From positions 1 through 33,736 of IMG/VR virus record IMGVR_UViG_3300021373_000844: DNA of 33,736 nt; one strand, given 5' to 3'. Positions within the stretch are counted from its first letter, which is position 1. Each line of letters begins with the position of its first letter. The notes under the pieces were generated by a model, which saw only the letters and a program-made list of their open reading frames with translations, searched no databases and had not been told where the DNA came from. The DNA is from a virus. The position numbers and the translations under genes were made by a program. Positions 5,049-20,238 of the stretch are shown piece by piece.

Positions 5049-5740
5049 TAGATCGCTAACCACTCTTTAAATTCTTGGATATATACTAGGTGCAGTGTCG
5101 TATCATCCTGCTCTACAATAATGCTTCTAGCGCCAAACTCATTGATATTGTATTTAGCTACATCGTAGTAAGACATATTGACAATATTAATCTCACCTAC
5201 AATGTCTATTCTGTCATCTGTACGGCAATTGACGATAACCGTTTCACGATCTTGCGGATGCTCTCTAAGGTTAATAACAACGCCAGAGGTAACTTTGAGA
5301 ATCTCTGAGCCGCCTGTTGTGTGGTTGGCAGTAATAATCTTAGCGTTAGCGTTCTTAAGATCTGCGCGACTAGCCATGCTACCCATAGAGATGTTGTAGA
5401 CGTTAGGCGCCTGAGCCTCATTAATATCCTTAACCGATCCAGCATCTATTTCATCGCCATTAGTTAAGGTTAAGACAAGATGGCCGTCAAAATCTACGCT
5501 TGCATCTTCAACGCCCACACCACGCTCGCCATCAGAGCCATCGGCTCCATCCTTACCGTTACTACCATCCTTACCATCTTTACCCGCAGGGCCGGTTTTT
5601 CCGGTTTTTCCGGTTTCTCCTTTTACCCCCTGCGGGCCGGGGTCGCCTTTATCCCCTTTTTCTCCACGAATAGCTTCTACTGCTTGTATCTTAGACAGTA
5701 GCTTGTCGTAAATGGCGGTAAGCTTTAAATCCACGTTCAT
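5048..5740 (-). CDS. collagen-like (Gly-X-Y) virion protein
   Basis: 230 residues. An N-terminal helix (about 1-25, LTAIYDKLLSKIQAVEAIRG) leads into about 16 Gly-X-Y triplets (residues 25-75), with GEKGDKGDPGPQG and GKDGKDGSNGKDGADG-type units that should form a collagen-like triple helix. Then comes a beta segment (DASVDFDGHLVLTLTNGDEI) and a C-terminal domain paralogous to the whole downstream protein. Phage collagen repeats occur in fibres, decoration proteins and fibre-tip proteins, so a trimeric virion appendage is likely. The start overlaps the portal stop by 4 bases (ATGA). Its place after the portal gene favours a head or connector appendage. Confidence 0.8.
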   Translation of the reverse strand: MNVDLKLTAIYDKLLSKIQAVEAIRGEKGDKGDPGPQGVKGETGKTGKTGPAGKDGKDGSNGKDGADGSDGERGVGVEDASVDFDGHLVLTLTNGDEIDAGSVKDINEAQAPNVYNISMGSMASRADLKNANAKIITANHTTGGSEILKVTSGVVINLREHPQDRETVIVNCRTDDRIDIVGEINIVNMSYYDVAKYNINEFGARSIIVEQDDTTLHLVYIQEFKEWLAI

Positions 5741-10970: not shown

Positions 10971-11014
10971 CAGTTTTCCTAGTTTTCCCTGTATCCCCAA
11001 CTGTAGGGGGCGGG
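10971..11014. repeat. AGTTTTCC direct repeats plus CTGTAGGGGGCGGG block, copy 1
   Basis: Two adjacent AGTTTTCCT/AGTTTTCCCT units (10972-10990) are followed by GTATCCCCAA and then the 14-mer CTGTAGGGGGCGGG (11001-11014). The same 14-mer, preceded by GTTTTCCCT, recurs at 19727-19750. A shared 14-mer with matching flanking units in two intergenic regions is unlikely by chance. It is probably a protein-binding, replication or processing site. Confidence 0.7.
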
Positions 11015-11556
11015 TTGACTATACCTTAGAACTTAATGGAATTAAAACCACGGCAATATAACTAAATGAATCAGACACTTAAAGTAATCCAAAATCACTC
11101 TTTTTTGTATCTGGGTGGGAACTATATATACACTGTGTCGCGTTACCCCCTCCCCGGTACTGTTTTTCACCATGTTTTGCCGAATGATCCCGTAGATTCT
11201 GTACGCAGGAGTGTGAGTATCCACGTAGTAGCCCCAAGAGCTATTGATCCCCATCTAATTTATCCAGTTCGCTTATCGTATTAGACACGCAGAAAGTTAT
11301 TGGCTACCTGATTGGATTGGTAATGACAACGCAGGCCCGTCTCCTATGTCTTAATTTCTACACCGTTACCGTCATCCGCTTAGGATTCCGTCACGTCGGC
11401 ATCTCTGCAAGGGCCACAAAAATAACGGTTTCCACGCAACGTCTCTGCCTGCTGATAAATCCGGCTGTGGACCCTCCGCGATTTTTCTGGACTACCCCCT
11501 TGCAAAGCTGGTCTCCGCAACGGAAGTCCTGCTCCTGTCGGAAACGGCAGAAATTT

Positions 11557-13326: not shown

Positions 13327-13330
13327 ACCA

Positions 13331-13355
13331 TGTTCGGGGCTCAACACCCCGGACA
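13331..13355 (+). terminator. intercistronic hairpin before the ArdC-like gene
   Basis: TGTTCGGGG, a 7-base loop (CTCAACA), then CCCCGGACA: a 9-bp stem including one G-U pair. No T run follows. It lies between the mini zinc-ribbon gene and the ArdC-like gene and resembles the hairpins at 12863 and 14423. Confidence 0.55.
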
Positions 13356-13380
13356 TCCACAAACCAACGGAGTACAACCT

Positions 13381-14211
13381 ATGAAATATGATCGAATCCT
13401 CGAACTCGTTATGGCCGCTATGGAAGATGAAACTTCATGGCGCAAAACATGGCAGTCACAATCCTGCCTTCACCAAAACTGGGTCAGCAAACGACCTTAC
13501 AATGGCACGAACCAGTTGATGACAATGATATCTAGCTGGATGCACGGCTTTGAAAAACCCTACTGGTTAACCTACAAGCAAGTCGTTGAGCTTGGCGGCA
13601 GTGTTAAAGGGCAGAAGGCTACGCCCGCTATCTTCTTTGGTACTGGCAAAGACAAAGAAGACACCGATAAGTCCTACAAGTTTGCCAAGCTATACAACAT
13701 CTTTAACATCGAGCAGACCGGCATCGAGTTACCCCAGATTGAGTTACGGCAAACCAAGCTTGAACGACCCTATGAAATGGCCGATGCAATCAAGGTTAAG
13801 ATTAGCTCCAGCACATTCCACAATCCGTGTTACTCGCCATCGGCTGATGAAATCCGAATGCCGATGCCAGGGCAATTTGAAACTGACGATGCCCATCAAT
13901 CCACTTTCTATCACGAATGCATTCATGCTACCGGTCACAACTCCCGGCTAGATCGGCCGCTGACTGGTGCATTTGGTAGCGAAGACTACGCCAAAGAAGA
14001 ATTGATTGCAGAGCTTGGATCAATCTTTTTATGTAGCGAGCTAGGTGTGACGTATGACATAGCGCAACACGCTAGCTATCTCAACTCTTGGAAAAAGGCA
14101 ATCCAGTCTAATCCCAAGTACCTAACGACTGCGGCAACCGAAGCACGAAAGGCTAGCGAGTATTGCATGTCGCAGTTCACCATGATGCGGAAGTATGACG
14201 AAGCCGCATAA
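13381..14211 (+). CDS. ArdC-like antirestriction protein with zincin domain
   Basis: 276 residues from MKYDRILELVMAAMEDETSW. The N-terminal ArdC-type ssDNA-binding domain shows 'PYNGTNQLMTMISSWMHGFE', 'YWLTYKQVVELGGSVKGQKA' and 'TPAIFFGTG', the usual pattern. The C-terminal domain is a metallopeptidase-like zincin: H178-E-C-I-H182 in 'FYHECIHATGH' and 'YAKEELIAELGS' supplying the third ligand Glu. In plasmids ArdC protects incoming ssDNA from restriction; phage homologues are presumed to counter host defence. ATG 13381 follows a GGAG site; an in-frame start at 13330 would lie in the hairpin and is rejected. The active-site residues look intact. Its unknown small neighbours may also be anti-defence genes. 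Confidence 0.88.
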   Translation: MKYDRILELVMAAMEDETSWRKTWQSQSCLHQNWVSKRPYNGTNQLMTMISSWMHGFEKPYWLTYKQVVELGGSVKGQKATPAIFFGTGKDKEDTDKSYKFAKLYNIFNIEQTGIELPQIELRQTKLERPYEMADAIKVKISSSTFHNPCYSPSADEIRMPMPGQFETDDAHQSTFYHECIHATGHNSRLDRPLTGAFGSEDYAKEELIAELGSIFLCSELGVTYDIAQHASYLNSWKKAIQSNPKYLTTAATEARKASEYCMSQFTMMRKYDEAA

Positions 14212-16103: not shown

Positions 16104-17267
16104 ATGGAGCATCCGTTACAAGAGTATTGCAATACAGAACATCAAAAATACTTAGTCAAACTCAGATATCTCGAAGGCCGTAGCTGGTCTGAGATATCAG
16201 AGATCGTTGGATCTGATCGAACCAATGCGCGAAACGCTCTCAAGGCAGTAGAAGGCAGAGCGGCTAAAGCTGGCTATGCGCCAAAGCACGATCATGTTCA
16301 CACTGTCCCACCCGGCTACGCAGTCAAAGGATCTTCAACACTTTACAAGGATGGCTCCGTTGCCCTTCAATGGGTAAAGACTGAGGCAGATAAGCAAGCT
16401 CAACTCGATGCAATAATTAGCAGGATTGAGTTGGCGTGTGAAGGCATTAAGCCATGGAGGCAAGTCAAGGCGCCGAAGAAAATTCAAGACAATTTACTTA
16501 GCTTGCTGGTGGTTACGGATTTTCATCTGGGTAGCTACTGTTGGGGCGACGAGACTAGCGAAGACTACAACACCGACATGGCCAGGGATCTATTCCTGTC
16601 AAGCATCAAAGATATGATCGACAGTACGCCTAACAGCAAGATAGGTTTACTTTGTAATCTTGGTGATTTTTTGCACTGGGACGGACTCCTCCAAATCACT
16701 CCCACTTCCGCTCATATCCTCGATAATGACAGTAGGTACAGCCGTATCGTCGATATAGCTATGACGGTCATGAACGAGGCTGTGCGGATGATGCTGGAGA
16801 AGTATGAGAAGGTCGTCTTTGTCTGCGCCGAAGGTAATCATGACATCGCGGGCTCCATCTGGTTACGCAAGTTCATTAGAAAGTTGTACGCCAATGAGCC
16901 AAGGCTGGATGTCATCGACAATGACTTCCCTTATTACGCTTACAGACATGGCAAGGTAATGCTGTGCTTCCATCATGGTCACAAAGTGAAGATGGACAGA
17001 TTGCCTAAAGTGTTTTCGAGTGAGCCTCGATTCAGAGAAGATTGGGGCAAGTCGACGGTGGCGTATATCCACAGCGGACATTATCATCATGAGCGGATAT
17101 TAGAAGACGCGGGGGCTATTACAGAACAGCACCCCACGTTAGCATCGCGAGATTCGTATGCCACTCGGCTGGGCCTCATGTCCCAGCGCGGAGCCAAGGT
17201 CATTACATACGACTCAGAAGACGGTGAAGTAAGCAGAATCACCGTTAGGCCAAAAGCTTACGACTGA
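16104..17267 (+). CDS. metallophosphoesterase with N-terminal HTH
   Basis: 387 residues from MEHPLQEYCNTEHQKYLVKL. Residues about 24-50 (EGRSWSEISEIVGSDRTNARNA) form a helix-turn-helix. From residue 132 a calcineurin-like phosphoesterase follows with all metal motifs: DFH (139-141), GD (187-188), GNHD (244-247), 'FHHGH' (289-293) and 'HSGHYHH' (323-329). This set fits a Mre11/SbcD-type nuclease or phosphatase that uses two metals. The HTH suggests DNA targeting, so a DNA end-processing nuclease for recombination is plausible. ATG 16104 has an AGGGGGA site; the longer in-frame start at 16038 overlaps the previous gene and is less likely. The 3' end overlaps the convergent 17258 gene by 10 bases. 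Confidence 0.85.
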   Translation: MEHPLQEYCNTEHQKYLVKLRYLEGRSWSEISEIVGSDRTNARNALKAVEGRAAKAGYAPKHDHVHTVPPGYAVKGSSTLYKDGSVALQWVKTEADKQAQLDAIISRIELACEGIKPWRQVKAPKKIQDNLLSLLVVTDFHLGSYCWGDETSEDYNTDMARDLFLSSIKDMIDSTPNSKIGLLCNLGDFLHWDGLLQITPTSAHILDNDSRYSRIVDIAMTVMNEAVRMMLEKYEKVVFVCAEGNHDIAGSIWLRKFIRKLYANEPRLDVIDNDFPYYAYRHGKVMLCFHHGHKVKMDRLPKVFSSEPRFREDWGKSTVAYIHSGHYHHERILEDAGAITEQHPTLASRDSYATRLGLMSQRGAKVITYDSEDGEVSRITVRPKAYD

Positions 17268-17443
17268 TCTTCTTCAGTCAAAGCGCCTTCGATGGCGGCC
17301 CTTGTAGTAAAGGGCTTGCCTTTGGCGTCAGTGAAATACTTGATCCCCTGAGCTTCCAGCACCTTGATTAACTTCGGCGAAGTATACGCCTTAAAGATGT
17401 GAAAGAGATCGCGATAGTAAAGGTATTCAGTTTGGTCGGTCAT
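17258..17443 (-). CDS. small DUF4224-like protein
   Basis: 61 residues: MTDQTEYLYYRDLFHIFKAY, then TSPKLIKVLEAQGIKYFTDA, then KGKPFTTRAAIEGALTEEDQ. The 'SPKLIKVLEAQGI.YF.DA.GKPFTTRAAIE' layout (helix-turn-helix then a short strand and 'R.A.E') resembles DUF4224 proteins, often near recombination genes in phages. It may be a small DNA-binding regulator. AGGAG lies 6 bases before ATG 17443, directly after the T tract of the hairpin at 17455-17478. The end is convergent with the metallophosphoesterase gene. Confidence 0.65.
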   Translation of the reverse strand: MTDQTEYLYYRDLFHIFKAYTSPKLIKVLEAQGIKYFTDAKGKPFTTRAAIEGALTEEDQS

Positions 17444-17454
17444 TAAGAACTCCT

Positions 17455-17478
17455 AAAAAAGCCCCGCCGAAACGGGGC
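17455..17478 (-). terminator. rho-independent terminator within the recombination island
   Basis: On the minus strand, GCCCCGTTTCGGCGGGGC followed by six T: a 6-bp GC stem with a 6-base loop. It is 7 bases past the SSB-like gene stop and directly before the ribosome site of the DUF4224-like gene, so that gene would depend on readthrough. Confidence 0.85.
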
Positions 17479-17485
17479 AAACCAC

Positions 17486-17779
17486 TCACCATGGAATGTC
17501 GTCGTTAGGGACAGGCTTTTGCGCTTGGCTTGCTGGCTGTCGAGCAGGTTGGTCAGCACTGGGTTTCCATGTATTTAACTCAGCATACCACTTGCCTGAT
17601 CGCCCTTCTTTAATCTCGATATTCATCCACTCTGAATCTGGATCTGCCTTCTTTCTTGAGGCAACCCAAGCTCCAAAGTCATCGAGCTTAATTGAAAGCT
17701 TTAGCTTTACAAAGTCTGGCGCATTTGCATCGGGCAACTTAACCATCATGCCATCTACAAAAATCTTTTCATCGTTCAT
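17486..17779 (-). CDS. SSB-like protein with acidic tip
   Basis: 97 residues. The N-terminal beta-rich part (EKIFVDGMMVKLPDANAPDF, then VKLKLSIKLDDFGAWV) fits an OB fold. A flexible Pro/Gln/Ala linker (QPARQPASQAQKPVP) then ends in NDDIPW, close to the DDIPF tip of bacterial SSB. That tip binds recombination and repair partners in SSB. The mid-part 'SEWMNIEIKEGRSGKWYAEL' is the expected last strands. It lies next to an ERF annealing protein, and the pair would coat and anneal ssDNA. It is shorter than cellular SSB (about 170 residues). Confidence 0.65.
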   Translation of the reverse strand: MNDEKIFVDGMMVKLPDANAPDFVKLKLSIKLDDFGAWVASRKKADPDSEWMNIEIKEGRSGKWYAELNTWKPSADQPARQPASQAQKPVPNDDIPW

Positions 17780-18014
17780 AACATCTCCTCAACGGGTTGA
17801 TTTTCATTACTTGGTTTTCATAGGTGGTAAACACACCACCTTTTGACTGAGCCAAATTTAAAGCCTCCTTCACCTCATTTGGCGTTTCTTCTACGATACA
17901 GCGCAATGCTTCCCACTCTTCGTTAGCCACTGCGCTCTTGACCTGACAGATGAAATCAAACTCCTCGCGTATCACTTTCATGTACGCAAGGAACTCTTCT
18001 TCATTTGCTACCAT
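17769..18014 (-). CDS. 81-residue helical protein of unknown function
   Basis: Reads MVANEEEFLAYMKVIREEFD, then FICQVKSAVANEEWEALRCI, then VEETPNEVKEALNLAQSKGG. Almost entirely helical, with a middle 'NEVKEALNLAQSKGGVFTTY' that could bind a partner. It overlaps the ERF gene at its start and the SSB-like gene at its stop (11 bases), so it is translated with both. The length and position suit a recombination accessory protein, but no family is recognised. Confidence 0.7.
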   Translation of the reverse strand: MVANEEEFLAYMKVIREEFDFICQVKSAVANEEWEALRCIVEETPNEVKEALNLAQSKGGVFTTYENQVMKINPLRRCYER

Positions 18015-18400
18015 CCTCGCTTTGCACCTGACGTCGCATTGTTGGCATCATCGTCTTTATCAGCTCCGATACCCAATGCCATTGACAGGCTATATCGCTT
18101 GGCATAGGTGACAGCACTGCCGAATGCTTGGGCCGTTGGTTTGTCTGCTCGAACAATCATCTTGCCAGTTGATAGCGAGTCACCATGCCCATACAAAACA
18201 GTTTCAATGCAGGCGCCTACATCACACTCGTGACTAACCTGCTGAATCATTATCCCGTGACCGTTCAGGGCTTCTTTAGCGTAATCCCAAAGATCTTCAA
18301 ATTTAACGTAGCTACTTTTAAAATGCGGGTTTACTGCTTCTGCTTTGGCGTGAGATAAATCTTGTTGAACTTCAAGAAGCTTTTCAATTAGCTTACTCAT
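18008..18400 (-). CDS. erf: ERF-family single-strand annealing protein
   Basis: 130 residues with clear ERF marks: NPHFKSSY (24-31) and 'FEDLWDYAKEALNGHGI' near the start, then 'TAQAFGSAVTYAKRYSLSMA' (89-108), then 'GIGADKDDDANNA'. P22 Erf is the type member; such proteins anneal complementary ssDNA and promote circularisation or recombination of phage DNA. At 130 residues it is the core domain only, without the longer C-terminal region of P22 Erf (about 200). GGAGG lies before ATG 18400. It is the first gene of the minus-strand island and shares its upstream region with the ATPase gene. Confidence 0.9.
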   Translation of the reverse strand: MSKLIEKLLEVQQDLSHAKAEAVNPHFKSSYVKFEDLWDYAKEALNGHGIMIQQVSHECDVGACIETVLYGHGDSLSTGKMIVRADKPTAQAFGSAVTYAKRYSLSMALGIGADKDDDANNATSGAKRGW

Positions 18401-18538: not shown

Positions 18539-19705
18539 ATGCAGGACGACTGGGCAGACTACTGCGAGTCAGTAGGACAAAAACCCGCCTTTGTAATTAA
18601 AGAAGAACTCATCAACGAAACCTTTCCGGGAAACCCGTATTACACAAAACAGAATGGATCATCATCGCTATCAAGACTTATGGGTGTTGCAGTTAACAGT
18701 CGCATAGAAGAGCTTGAGATGCGCTTGGCGCAAGAGCGAGACGTTATCCCTGGCATGATCACCACCGGCACCGTAACGCTTGTATACGCGCCTTCTGGGG
18801 CCGGCAAAACGGTCTGGATTCTTGGCAATTTATTCCAGAGTATTCGGAACAACCTAATAAAAGGCTCCGATGTAATCTATTTTAACGAAGACGACGGAGC
18901 AAAAGGAGTACTTCAGAAAGCCAAGATGGGCAATCGGCATGGCATAACAATGGTCACTTTAGCCAACTCACCAGATCCATCACTCCGTACAACAACTGAC
19001 GCACTTCAGCTGTTGAACGCTATTCGTGAAGAAGGTGAGGCTAACGGCAAGATTGTTATCTGCGACACCCTCAAGAAGTTTGCGCCTGTACTCAACAAAG
19101 GGGATATGCGAGAAGTTCTTCATGTCTTTCGTGAATTCGCGGCCGCAGGCGGTACTGTCATCTTACTAGGGCATTGCAACAAACATCGAAGCATGGACGG
19201 TCGCTTGATCTACGAAGGCGTTGGAGATCTTAAAGCTGATGTAGATAATATGTTTGGCCTTGATCCAGTCAACGATAAGTTTGCTTTCTATCAAGAGCTG
19301 TTAGTAATCAATGAAAAGGATCGTAGCCAAATTAGCTTTGAAGGCGGATTCAAATATAAGCAGACCAGTGCAACAGTAGGGTATGAAGAGTCAGTAGATT
19401 CTGTGCAGTTCATGACAGTTGATGACATCACAGAACTTAAAGAGAAACAAAGGGCGCAGATCAACATTGGCAAAGCAATCAACAAGTATGAAGATGAGTA
19501 TCTATTTCTTAGCACTGTTATGAAGCAAGGCAAAATGTTTAGTCAGTCAGAGCTATGCGATCTTTTGTATGATGATGAGATTAACCCAAACGGATGCACA
19601 AAGAAAAAGCTTCTTACCTGCATCGAGCTACTCAAAGGCAACAATCTAAAGCTAGAACGCCGTGGCGAACACAACAAAAAGTATTATCGTTGGATTCCCA
19701 TGTAG
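18539..19705 (+). CDS. RecA-like / RepA-type P-loop ATPase
   Basis: 388 residues. A P-loop APSGAGKT (84-91) and Walker B-like 'KIVICDT' (Asp176) lie in a RecA-type core with 'DVIYFNEDDG' and 'TVILLGHCNKH' (sensor-like His). The layout matches AAA_25/RepA hexameric helicase-like ATPases. The C-terminal part, 'SQSELCDLLYDDEINPNGCT', resembles a winged helix that could bind DNA. It probably serves as a helicase-like or loader ATPase for replication. An AAGGAG site precedes the ATG. With no polymerase or primase gene in the window, it may recruit host replisome parts. Confidence 0.82.
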   Translation: MQDDWADYCESVGQKPAFVIKEELINETFPGNPYYTKQNGSSSLSRLMGVAVNSRIEELEMRLAQERDVIPGMITTGTVTLVYAPSGAGKTVWILGNLFQSIRNNLIKGSDVIYFNEDDGAKGVLQKAKMGNRHGITMVTLANSPDPSLRTTTDALQLLNAIREEGEANGKIVICDTLKKFAPVLNKGDMREVLHVFREFAAAGGTVILLGHCNKHRSMDGRLIYEGVGDLKADVDNMFGLDPVNDKFAFYQELLVINEKDRSQISFEGGFKYKQTSATVGYEESVDSVQFMTVDDITELKEKQRAQINIGKAINKYEDEYLFLSTVMKQGKMFSQSELCDLLYDDEINPNGCTKKKLLTCIELLKGNNLKLERRGEHNKKYYRWIPM

Positions 19706-19710
19706 TCTGT

Positions 19711-19805
19711 TTCCCCCGTTTTCCCCGTTTTCCCTTCTGTAGGGGGCGGGATAGATTAAAAGGCGGGGGGTATACTTGGGTAAACTGGGGAAACTGGGAA
19801 AACTG
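19711..19805. repeat. AGTTTTCCC-type repeats plus CTGTAGGGGGCGGG block, copy 2
   Basis: Between the ATPase stop and the ninB-like start lie direct GTTTTCCC units (19718-19735), the 14-mer CTGTAGGGGGCGGG (19737-19750), a G-rich tract (GGCGGGGGG), and inverted copies (AACTGGGG, AAACTGGG, AAAACTG at 19783-19805). The two sets of units face each other, so the RNA could form a large hairpin. Copy 1 lies at 10971-11014. Confidence 0.7.
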
Positions 19806-19806
19806 A

Positions 19807-20238
19807 ATGGGAAATATGGATACATCACATCGCTGGTTAGTCGACAAAGAAGAAAAGATGAACTTCTTTATTGCTTTTGTCACAACTCAATTCGATCAAG
19901 GCAAAAAAATCCTGTACTACATCAAGGATACAACGCGCAGTGATCGGCAAAATAACGCCATGCACTTATGGTTTAGGCAGATAGCCGAAGGTCTTAACGA
20001 CGCTGGGTACTGGGTACGGCATCCGTTCAGTGACAAGCTGGAGATACCGTTTACCGAGGTGCTGGTAAAGGAAACCCTCTACAAGCCCATCATACGCTCT
20101 ATGTACGACAAACCGTCCACAGGCAAGCTAACCCCCAAGGAACTCTCAGAAGCCGCTGAGGTGCTAATTAGGTGGCTCTCAGAGCATAAGGGCGTATACA
20201 TTCCCTTTCCTCAACAACTAAAGGATGAGTTGCGGTGA
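19807..20238 (+). CDS. NinB-like recombination protein
   Basis: 143 residues. The core 'DTTRSDRQNNAMHLWFRQIA' matches the '(R)S..QN..mh.W..eia' signature of NinB (lambda Orf), followed by 'EIPFTEVLVKETLYKPIIRS' and a C-terminal 'LIRWLSEHKGVYIPFPQ'. Lambda Orf binds ssDNA and SSB and can replace RecFOR functions in recombination. The neighbours are a NinG-like gene and, nearby, an ERF gene, which supports the assignment. Start at ATG 19807 or, 9 bases on, 19816; neither has a strong ribosome site, and the first overlaps the repeat block edge. Confidence 0.78.
   Translation: MGNMDTSHRWLVDKEEKMNFFIAFVTTQFDQGKKILYYIKDTTRSDRQNNAMHLWFRQIAEGLNDAGYWVRHPFSDKLEIPFTEVLVKETLYKPIIRSMYDKPSTGKLTPKELSEAAEVLIRWLSEHKGVYIPFPQQLKDELR

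Follow-up and report, generated by a model that had tools for sequence, protein, structure and literature searches.

We analysed a stretch of DNA of 33,736 nucleotides (the window), an IMG/VR record from an uncultivated phage, and found that a module of iterons and a conserved core stands at two distant loci, called site 1 and site 2 here, and that in related genomes the iteron word covaries with a single residue of the ATPase encoded just upstream of site 2. The comparison of these genomes strongly supports a model in which the ATPase recognises both sites through its winged helix, with residue 359 determining which base stands before CCC. Because the ATPase has RepA-like AAA_25 residues, because no polymerase, primase or DnaB is recognised, and because the layout is like that of SaPI Rep/ori, we take site 2 to be probably a replication origin that is recognised by the ATPase as initiator, and put the probability of this reading at roughly 0.72.

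In the sequence of the window, the module at each site consists of three 9-bp iterons (GTTTTCCCN), a gap of 1–2 bp, and then the core CTGTAGGGGGCGGG. Site 1 (10973-11014) is a single iteron array with its core, lies in the spacer between divergent operons and is the only one of the two that adjoins an AT-rich stretch, none being seen beside site 2 in the window when judged by reading. Site 2 (19709-19803) has two iteron arrays in facing orientation: the module at 19709-19750 opposes an inverted array at 19777-19803, which carries a C-run core at 19762-19775. GTTTTCCC units are found at 10973-10999 and 19709-19735 on the + strand and in inverted form at 19777-19803, which bears out a sequence-only reading of this DNA that had reported inverted units at 19.7 kb.

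Table 1. Positions of the two sites and of the genes and protein regions discussed with them (window coordinates).
Feature	Position	Strand	Basis
Site 1 array, iterons GTTTTCCTA, GTTTTCCCT, GTATCCCCA	10973..10999	+	Score 21, shuffle maximum 18; class equals that of site 2 in relatives having site 1
Site 1 core CTGTAGGGGGCGGG	11001..11014	+	Exact match
RecA-fold ATPase (AAA_25), 388 aa, proposed replication initiator, perhaps also helicase	18539..19705	+	Pfam PF13481, E=1.8e-10, above the curated cut-off
Winged-helix domain at the C-terminus of the ATPase, residues 318-388	19490..19702	+	AlphaFold2 pLDDT 91 for residues 299-388
Predicted recognition helix (residues 355-365); its specificity residue, 359, is Leu in the window	19601..19633	+	Residue 359 separates the iteron classes perfectly
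Site 2 left array, iterons GTTTCCCCC, GTTTTCCCC, GTTTTCCCT	19709..19735	+	Sequence; array score 23, shuffle maximum 18; counterpart in relatives
Site 2 left core CTGTAGGGGGCGGG	19737..19750	+	Exact match; in relatives mostly TTTAGGGGGCGGG; present regardless of iteron class
Site 2 right core GGCGGGGGGTATAC (reverse complement GTATACCCCCCGCC), C-run form	19762..19775	-	Sequence; G-run or C-run form here in relatives
Site 2 right array, inverted iterons (reverse complement GTTTTCCCA, GTTTCCCCA, GTTTACCCA)	19777..19803	-	Array score; in relatives, class switches along with that of the left arm
NinB/Orf-like recombination mediator, downstream of site 2	19807..20238	+	PF05772, phrog_72; not always adjacent in relatives

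The sequence-only reading had started from a 14-mer shared by two non-coding loci, and both parts of this hold, since the exact 14-mer is present on the + strand at both sites and both sites are intergenic. A comparison with shuffled sequence, which that reading had suggested, separates the larger module from the 14-mer. The 42-bp module of three iterons and core matches between site 2 and site 1 at 34/42 positions, whereas 100 shuffles gave nothing above 26/42. The three iteron arrays (scores of 23, 22 and 21) are the only ones in non-coding DNA that exceed the shuffle range. The 14-mer alone could be a product of chance (25 direct exact 14-mer pairs in the window, with 3.4 direct and 4.8 inverted pairs expected per shuffle), and it was rejected as a diagnostic marker because many of the at least 118 IMG/VR stretches that carry it lie outside the relatives of the ATPase. 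The 14-mer is thus the lesser point, and what repeats is the larger module of iterons and core. One further module match, of 27/42 at position 5595, was discarded as a site, as it falls within a collagen-like Gly-X-Y coding repeat. GC skew tracks gene direction in the window and is of no help in locating an origin.

Conservation was followed in about 125 related IMG/VR contigs, the first 80 relatives being gathered through the ATPase. Site 2 lies downstream of the ATPase gene in nearly all of them, so the block does occur at the corresponding place in related genomes, and in most it is no more than about 100 bp from the ATPase stop. One extra small gene stands between the two in about eleven genomes (noted in L124, L125, L126, L140, L147-L149, L151, L152 and L159). 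The iteron word changes by lineage (AATGCCC, AATCCCC/AATACCC, TTGGCCC, TTTTCCC) at a constant 9-bp spacing; the left and right arms of site 2, and site 1 where present, switch word jointly, and the inner core (T)TTAGGGGGC(GGG) is largely constant across iteron words. In a divergent clade the block is a compact near-palindrome with three iterons per side, and the core of these compact variants is a TTTT-GC palindrome-AAAAA, the reverse of the order in a terminator. The handedness of the block is swapped in L180, L182-L185 and L188 (TTTGCCC left, AATGCCC right), and in L193 and L199 one more inverted array of iterons stands about 170-200 bp past the right arm. The large hairpin that had been proposed for 19.7 kb turned out to be weak (DNA fold z = -1.5), and in relatives the arms pair imperfectly because their sequences usually differ, with AAT- on the left and TTT- on the right.

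The block keeps close to the ATPase in relatives, whereas ninB is found at distances of about 0.1 to 1.9 kb from the ATPase stop. Because other sequence sits between block and ninB in L155, L168, L170, L174-L178 and L237-L249, where ninB is 0.7-1.9 kb off, the block-ninB interval looks like a hotspot of gene insertion. Site 1 is absent from L138-L140, L147-L149, L176, L177, L183, L184 and L190, and since it is missing from many relatives in which the switch-region flanks are kept, it would be an accessory site, most simply a regulatory site for the ATPase in the early/late switch. Neither DNA nor protein searches found relatives of the region or of the ATPase among cultured phages and plasmids, and none of 50,697 deposited phage records matched the ATPase. 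A scan of GTDB returned a single fragment, from a gammaproteobacterial MAG, which is too little to name a host.

Five residues of the ATPase are invariant in relatives, K90 (Walker A), E117, D176, H212 and R262, with catalytic roles assigned by inspection. No relative of the protein was recovered when solved structures were searched by sequence; the best Foldseek matches were to KaiC and were weak, with a core model that is poor over residues 67-89 and 212-271 (pLDDT below 50). The model of the C-terminal domain matches winged-helix regulators with Z of 8-9.4 (VIA-align).

In ten shared proteins, we compared the alignment columns for those that separate genomes with G before CCC from genomes without it. 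Only the ATPase has columns that separate the full sample perfectly, at residues 333, 340 and 359, and all three are in the C-terminal winged helix; NinB, NinG, the small and large terminase, the putative SSB and the other shared proteins have no such column. Apparently perfect columns in proteins 17486 and 9925 were discounted, being based on a few rows. All 63 genomes with xGCCC iterons have Arg at residue 359, and all 18 with A, C or T before CCC have Leu there. When words are pooled, Arg goes with G in 470 of 478, and Leu with C in 107, A in 49, T in 14 and G in 0 of 170. A weaker link concerns residue 352: the next base outward is G in 34/64 cases with Glu at this residue and in 8/487 with Gly. 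A set of 37 further contigs, which tests the Arg half of the rule only, is all Arg with G, in 283 of 283 words when six contigs of the first set are included in the count. Seven more contigs also obey the rule (3 Leu with non-G, 4 Arg with G), and in all 44 contigs beyond the first set follow it. We infer from the pooled words that Arg 359 would contact a guanine and that Leu would leave that base uncontacted.

On a tree built from the N-terminal part of the ATPase only, the class changes at least 6 times on well-supported branches (9 by parsimony), and residue 359 follows every class change and agrees in all independent pairs. Since the C-terminal domain and site 2 are adjacent, an exchange of cassettes could move them jointly, and this may explain part of the covariation at site 2. 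Linkage alone does not account for the covariation because site 1, which is 8-9 kb away, has the class of site 2 in 10/10 near genomes, and a tree of its own flank forces at least 2 class switches (3 by parsimony). In the pair L133 and L135, the flanks downstream of the core are nearly identical and the iterons are different, each fitting its own ATPase.

Like iteron origins, the block contains a short word repeated directly in tandem in non-coding DNA, and this is kept in relatives. The genes of the window that were scanned include an Erf annealase, a putative SSB, NinB, NinG, an exonuclease, ArdC and virion genes, with no recognised polymerase, primase, DnaB or other helicase among them, and no DnaB_C match was found in 16 related contigs. 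Counting against an origin are the lack of an AT-rich unwinding element by site 2 in the window, a feature that plasmid iteron origins commonly but not always have, and the extra gene that separates ATPase and block in some genomes. If site 2 is an origin, the ATPase would bind it through its C-terminal winged helix, with one domain per 9-bp iteron on the two facing arrays; the ATPase domains would next assemble into an oligomer that surrounds or adjoins the conserved GC-rich core, and would open the duplex, and the protein would act as the replicative helicase or load it, leaving synthesis to host enzymes. Site 1, as a half-module between divergent operons, would bind the same ATPase and probably adjust early/late transcription or couple transcription to replication. 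In this scheme, we infer the start of replication upon binding, the oligomeric state, the duplex opening, the helicase activity and the role of site 1.

This arrangement is like that of SaPI Rep/ori, and of SCCmec Cch2 with its putative origin, in that the block is directly downstream of the gene of its own ATPase, with a C-terminal reader domain that is here predicted from covariation and the model. The C-terminal domain of SaPI Rep helicases recognises iterons directly downstream of the rep gene, and Rep is thought to bind as two hexamers (PMC7581432). Unlike SaPI Rep and Cch2, which have a DUF927 or D5/Primase_Cterm ATPase (PMC7581432), the present protein matches the RecA-fold family AAA_25, the only one that Pfam finds in it. 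It further differs from SaPI Rep/ori by 9-bp tandem iterons with a GC-rich core, by a second, distant half-site, and by belonging to a phage and not to a satellite. It probably works like SaPI Rep/ori but is not a sequence member of that family, being a variant of the iteron-initiator kind. In P4, the alpha protein is one initiator with two separated binding regions, ori and crr, and the two sites here are likewise separated, putative binding regions for one initiator; site 1 is absent in many relatives and so, unlike crr, is unlikely to be essential. The ATPase family also differs, and no primase domain is matched here, whereas P4 alpha is described, in the work of Ziegelin et al. 1993 as cited in PMC8965321, as a multifunctional initiator for origin recognition, helicase and primase.

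The RecA-fold core and the five invariant residues are reminiscent of RSF1010 RepA and of GP46 of the lactococcal phage F13. RepA-type hexameric helicases form a RecA-fold class that includes AAA_25 and has a Lys/Glu/Asp/His/Arg catalytic set (PMC8965321). The ATPase has no sequence match to solved RepA. In RSF1010 the iterons are read by a separate protein, RepC, unlike the predicted reader domain here, which is fused to the ATPase. In lambdoid O/ori systems, iteron words differ among relatives and match the cognate initiator. The same is true of geminivirus Rep/iteron pairs (PMC12548392). The proteins are unrelated in both cases, and here one recognition-helix residue is tied to one base. 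We would give even odds to the system being an undescribed phage origin family, with an AAA_25 initiator-helicase that has its own iteron-reading winged helix, a readable code (Arg at 359 for G, Leu at 359 for bases other than G, and perhaps a preference for G at the next position with Glu or Asp at 352) and a distant half-site tying replication to the early/late switch.

The covariation would be equally well explained if the ATPase bound the iterons as a transcription regulator, with site 2 controlling ninB-ninG, site 1 the early/late switch, and replication starting elsewhere. The position of site 1 between divergent operons and that of site 2 just upstream of ninB in the window fit this reading, but in many relatives ninB is up to 1.9 kb from a block that stays near the ATPase, site 1 is missing from many relatives with conserved switch-region flanks, and paired inverted arrays exceed what a simple operator needs, so that we consider it unlikely. 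It is more doubtful still that the ATPase serves in recombination or partition (as a protein like Sak4/RadA, or one with the logic of ParA/TubR) and that the block is its loading, pairing or segregation site. Its neighbours Erf, NinB, NinG and the putative SSB and a weak PHROG match to Sak4 (E=0.005) are in accordance with such a role, but the genome would then be without a recognisable initiator, and neither Sak4 nor RadA is known to read iterons sequence-specifically with a winged helix. A terminator, another hairpin-forming RNA/DNA element or a packaging (cos/pac) site is very improbable: the inverted arrays and, in some relatives, a terminator-like AGGGGGCGGG...CCCGCCCCCTTTTT suggest one, but the block has no stable GC hairpin followed by a T-run, the fold is weak, the arms are systematically mismatched, the compact variants have their T-run on the wrong side, and iteron class shows no covariation with either the small or the large terminase. 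Among the options that the sequence-only reading had left side by side, an iteron origin is therefore the one that gains support, with a specific binder which had not been singled out before; neither a paired terminator nor a site for packaging or recombination is favoured, and a regulator site is possible for site 1.

Three other parts of the window were noted along the way. A second conserved non-coding element at 11101-11160 consists of TTTTTTGTATCTGGGTGGGAAC, about 24 variable bases and CCCCCTCCCCGG; it is found in 25 related sequences at near-fixed spacing, purines and pyrimidines tend to alternate in its variable part (0.66, with 0.50 in shuffled sequence), and the element could be a promoter, cos or another protein site. 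At 17258-18400 (-), on the opposite strand in the early region, is a recombination module of Erf (PF04404, E=7.4e-21), for which no counterpart was detected in most relatives, and a putative SSB ending in DDIPW. An ArdC-type anti-restriction gene occupies 13330-14211.

A virus lineage whose ATPase is unmatched in deposited phages thus appears to hold a complete initiator-origin pair, with a DNA-reading rule that is visible from sequence. Repeated parallel changes of one residue and one base, at two sites that are not linked, provide a natural series of initiator/origin pairs with different specificity. This raises the question of why close relatives keep altering the password of their origin; that they avoid a satellite or the initiator of a relative is speculation. 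The pairing also gives a route to finding origins in uncultivated phages.
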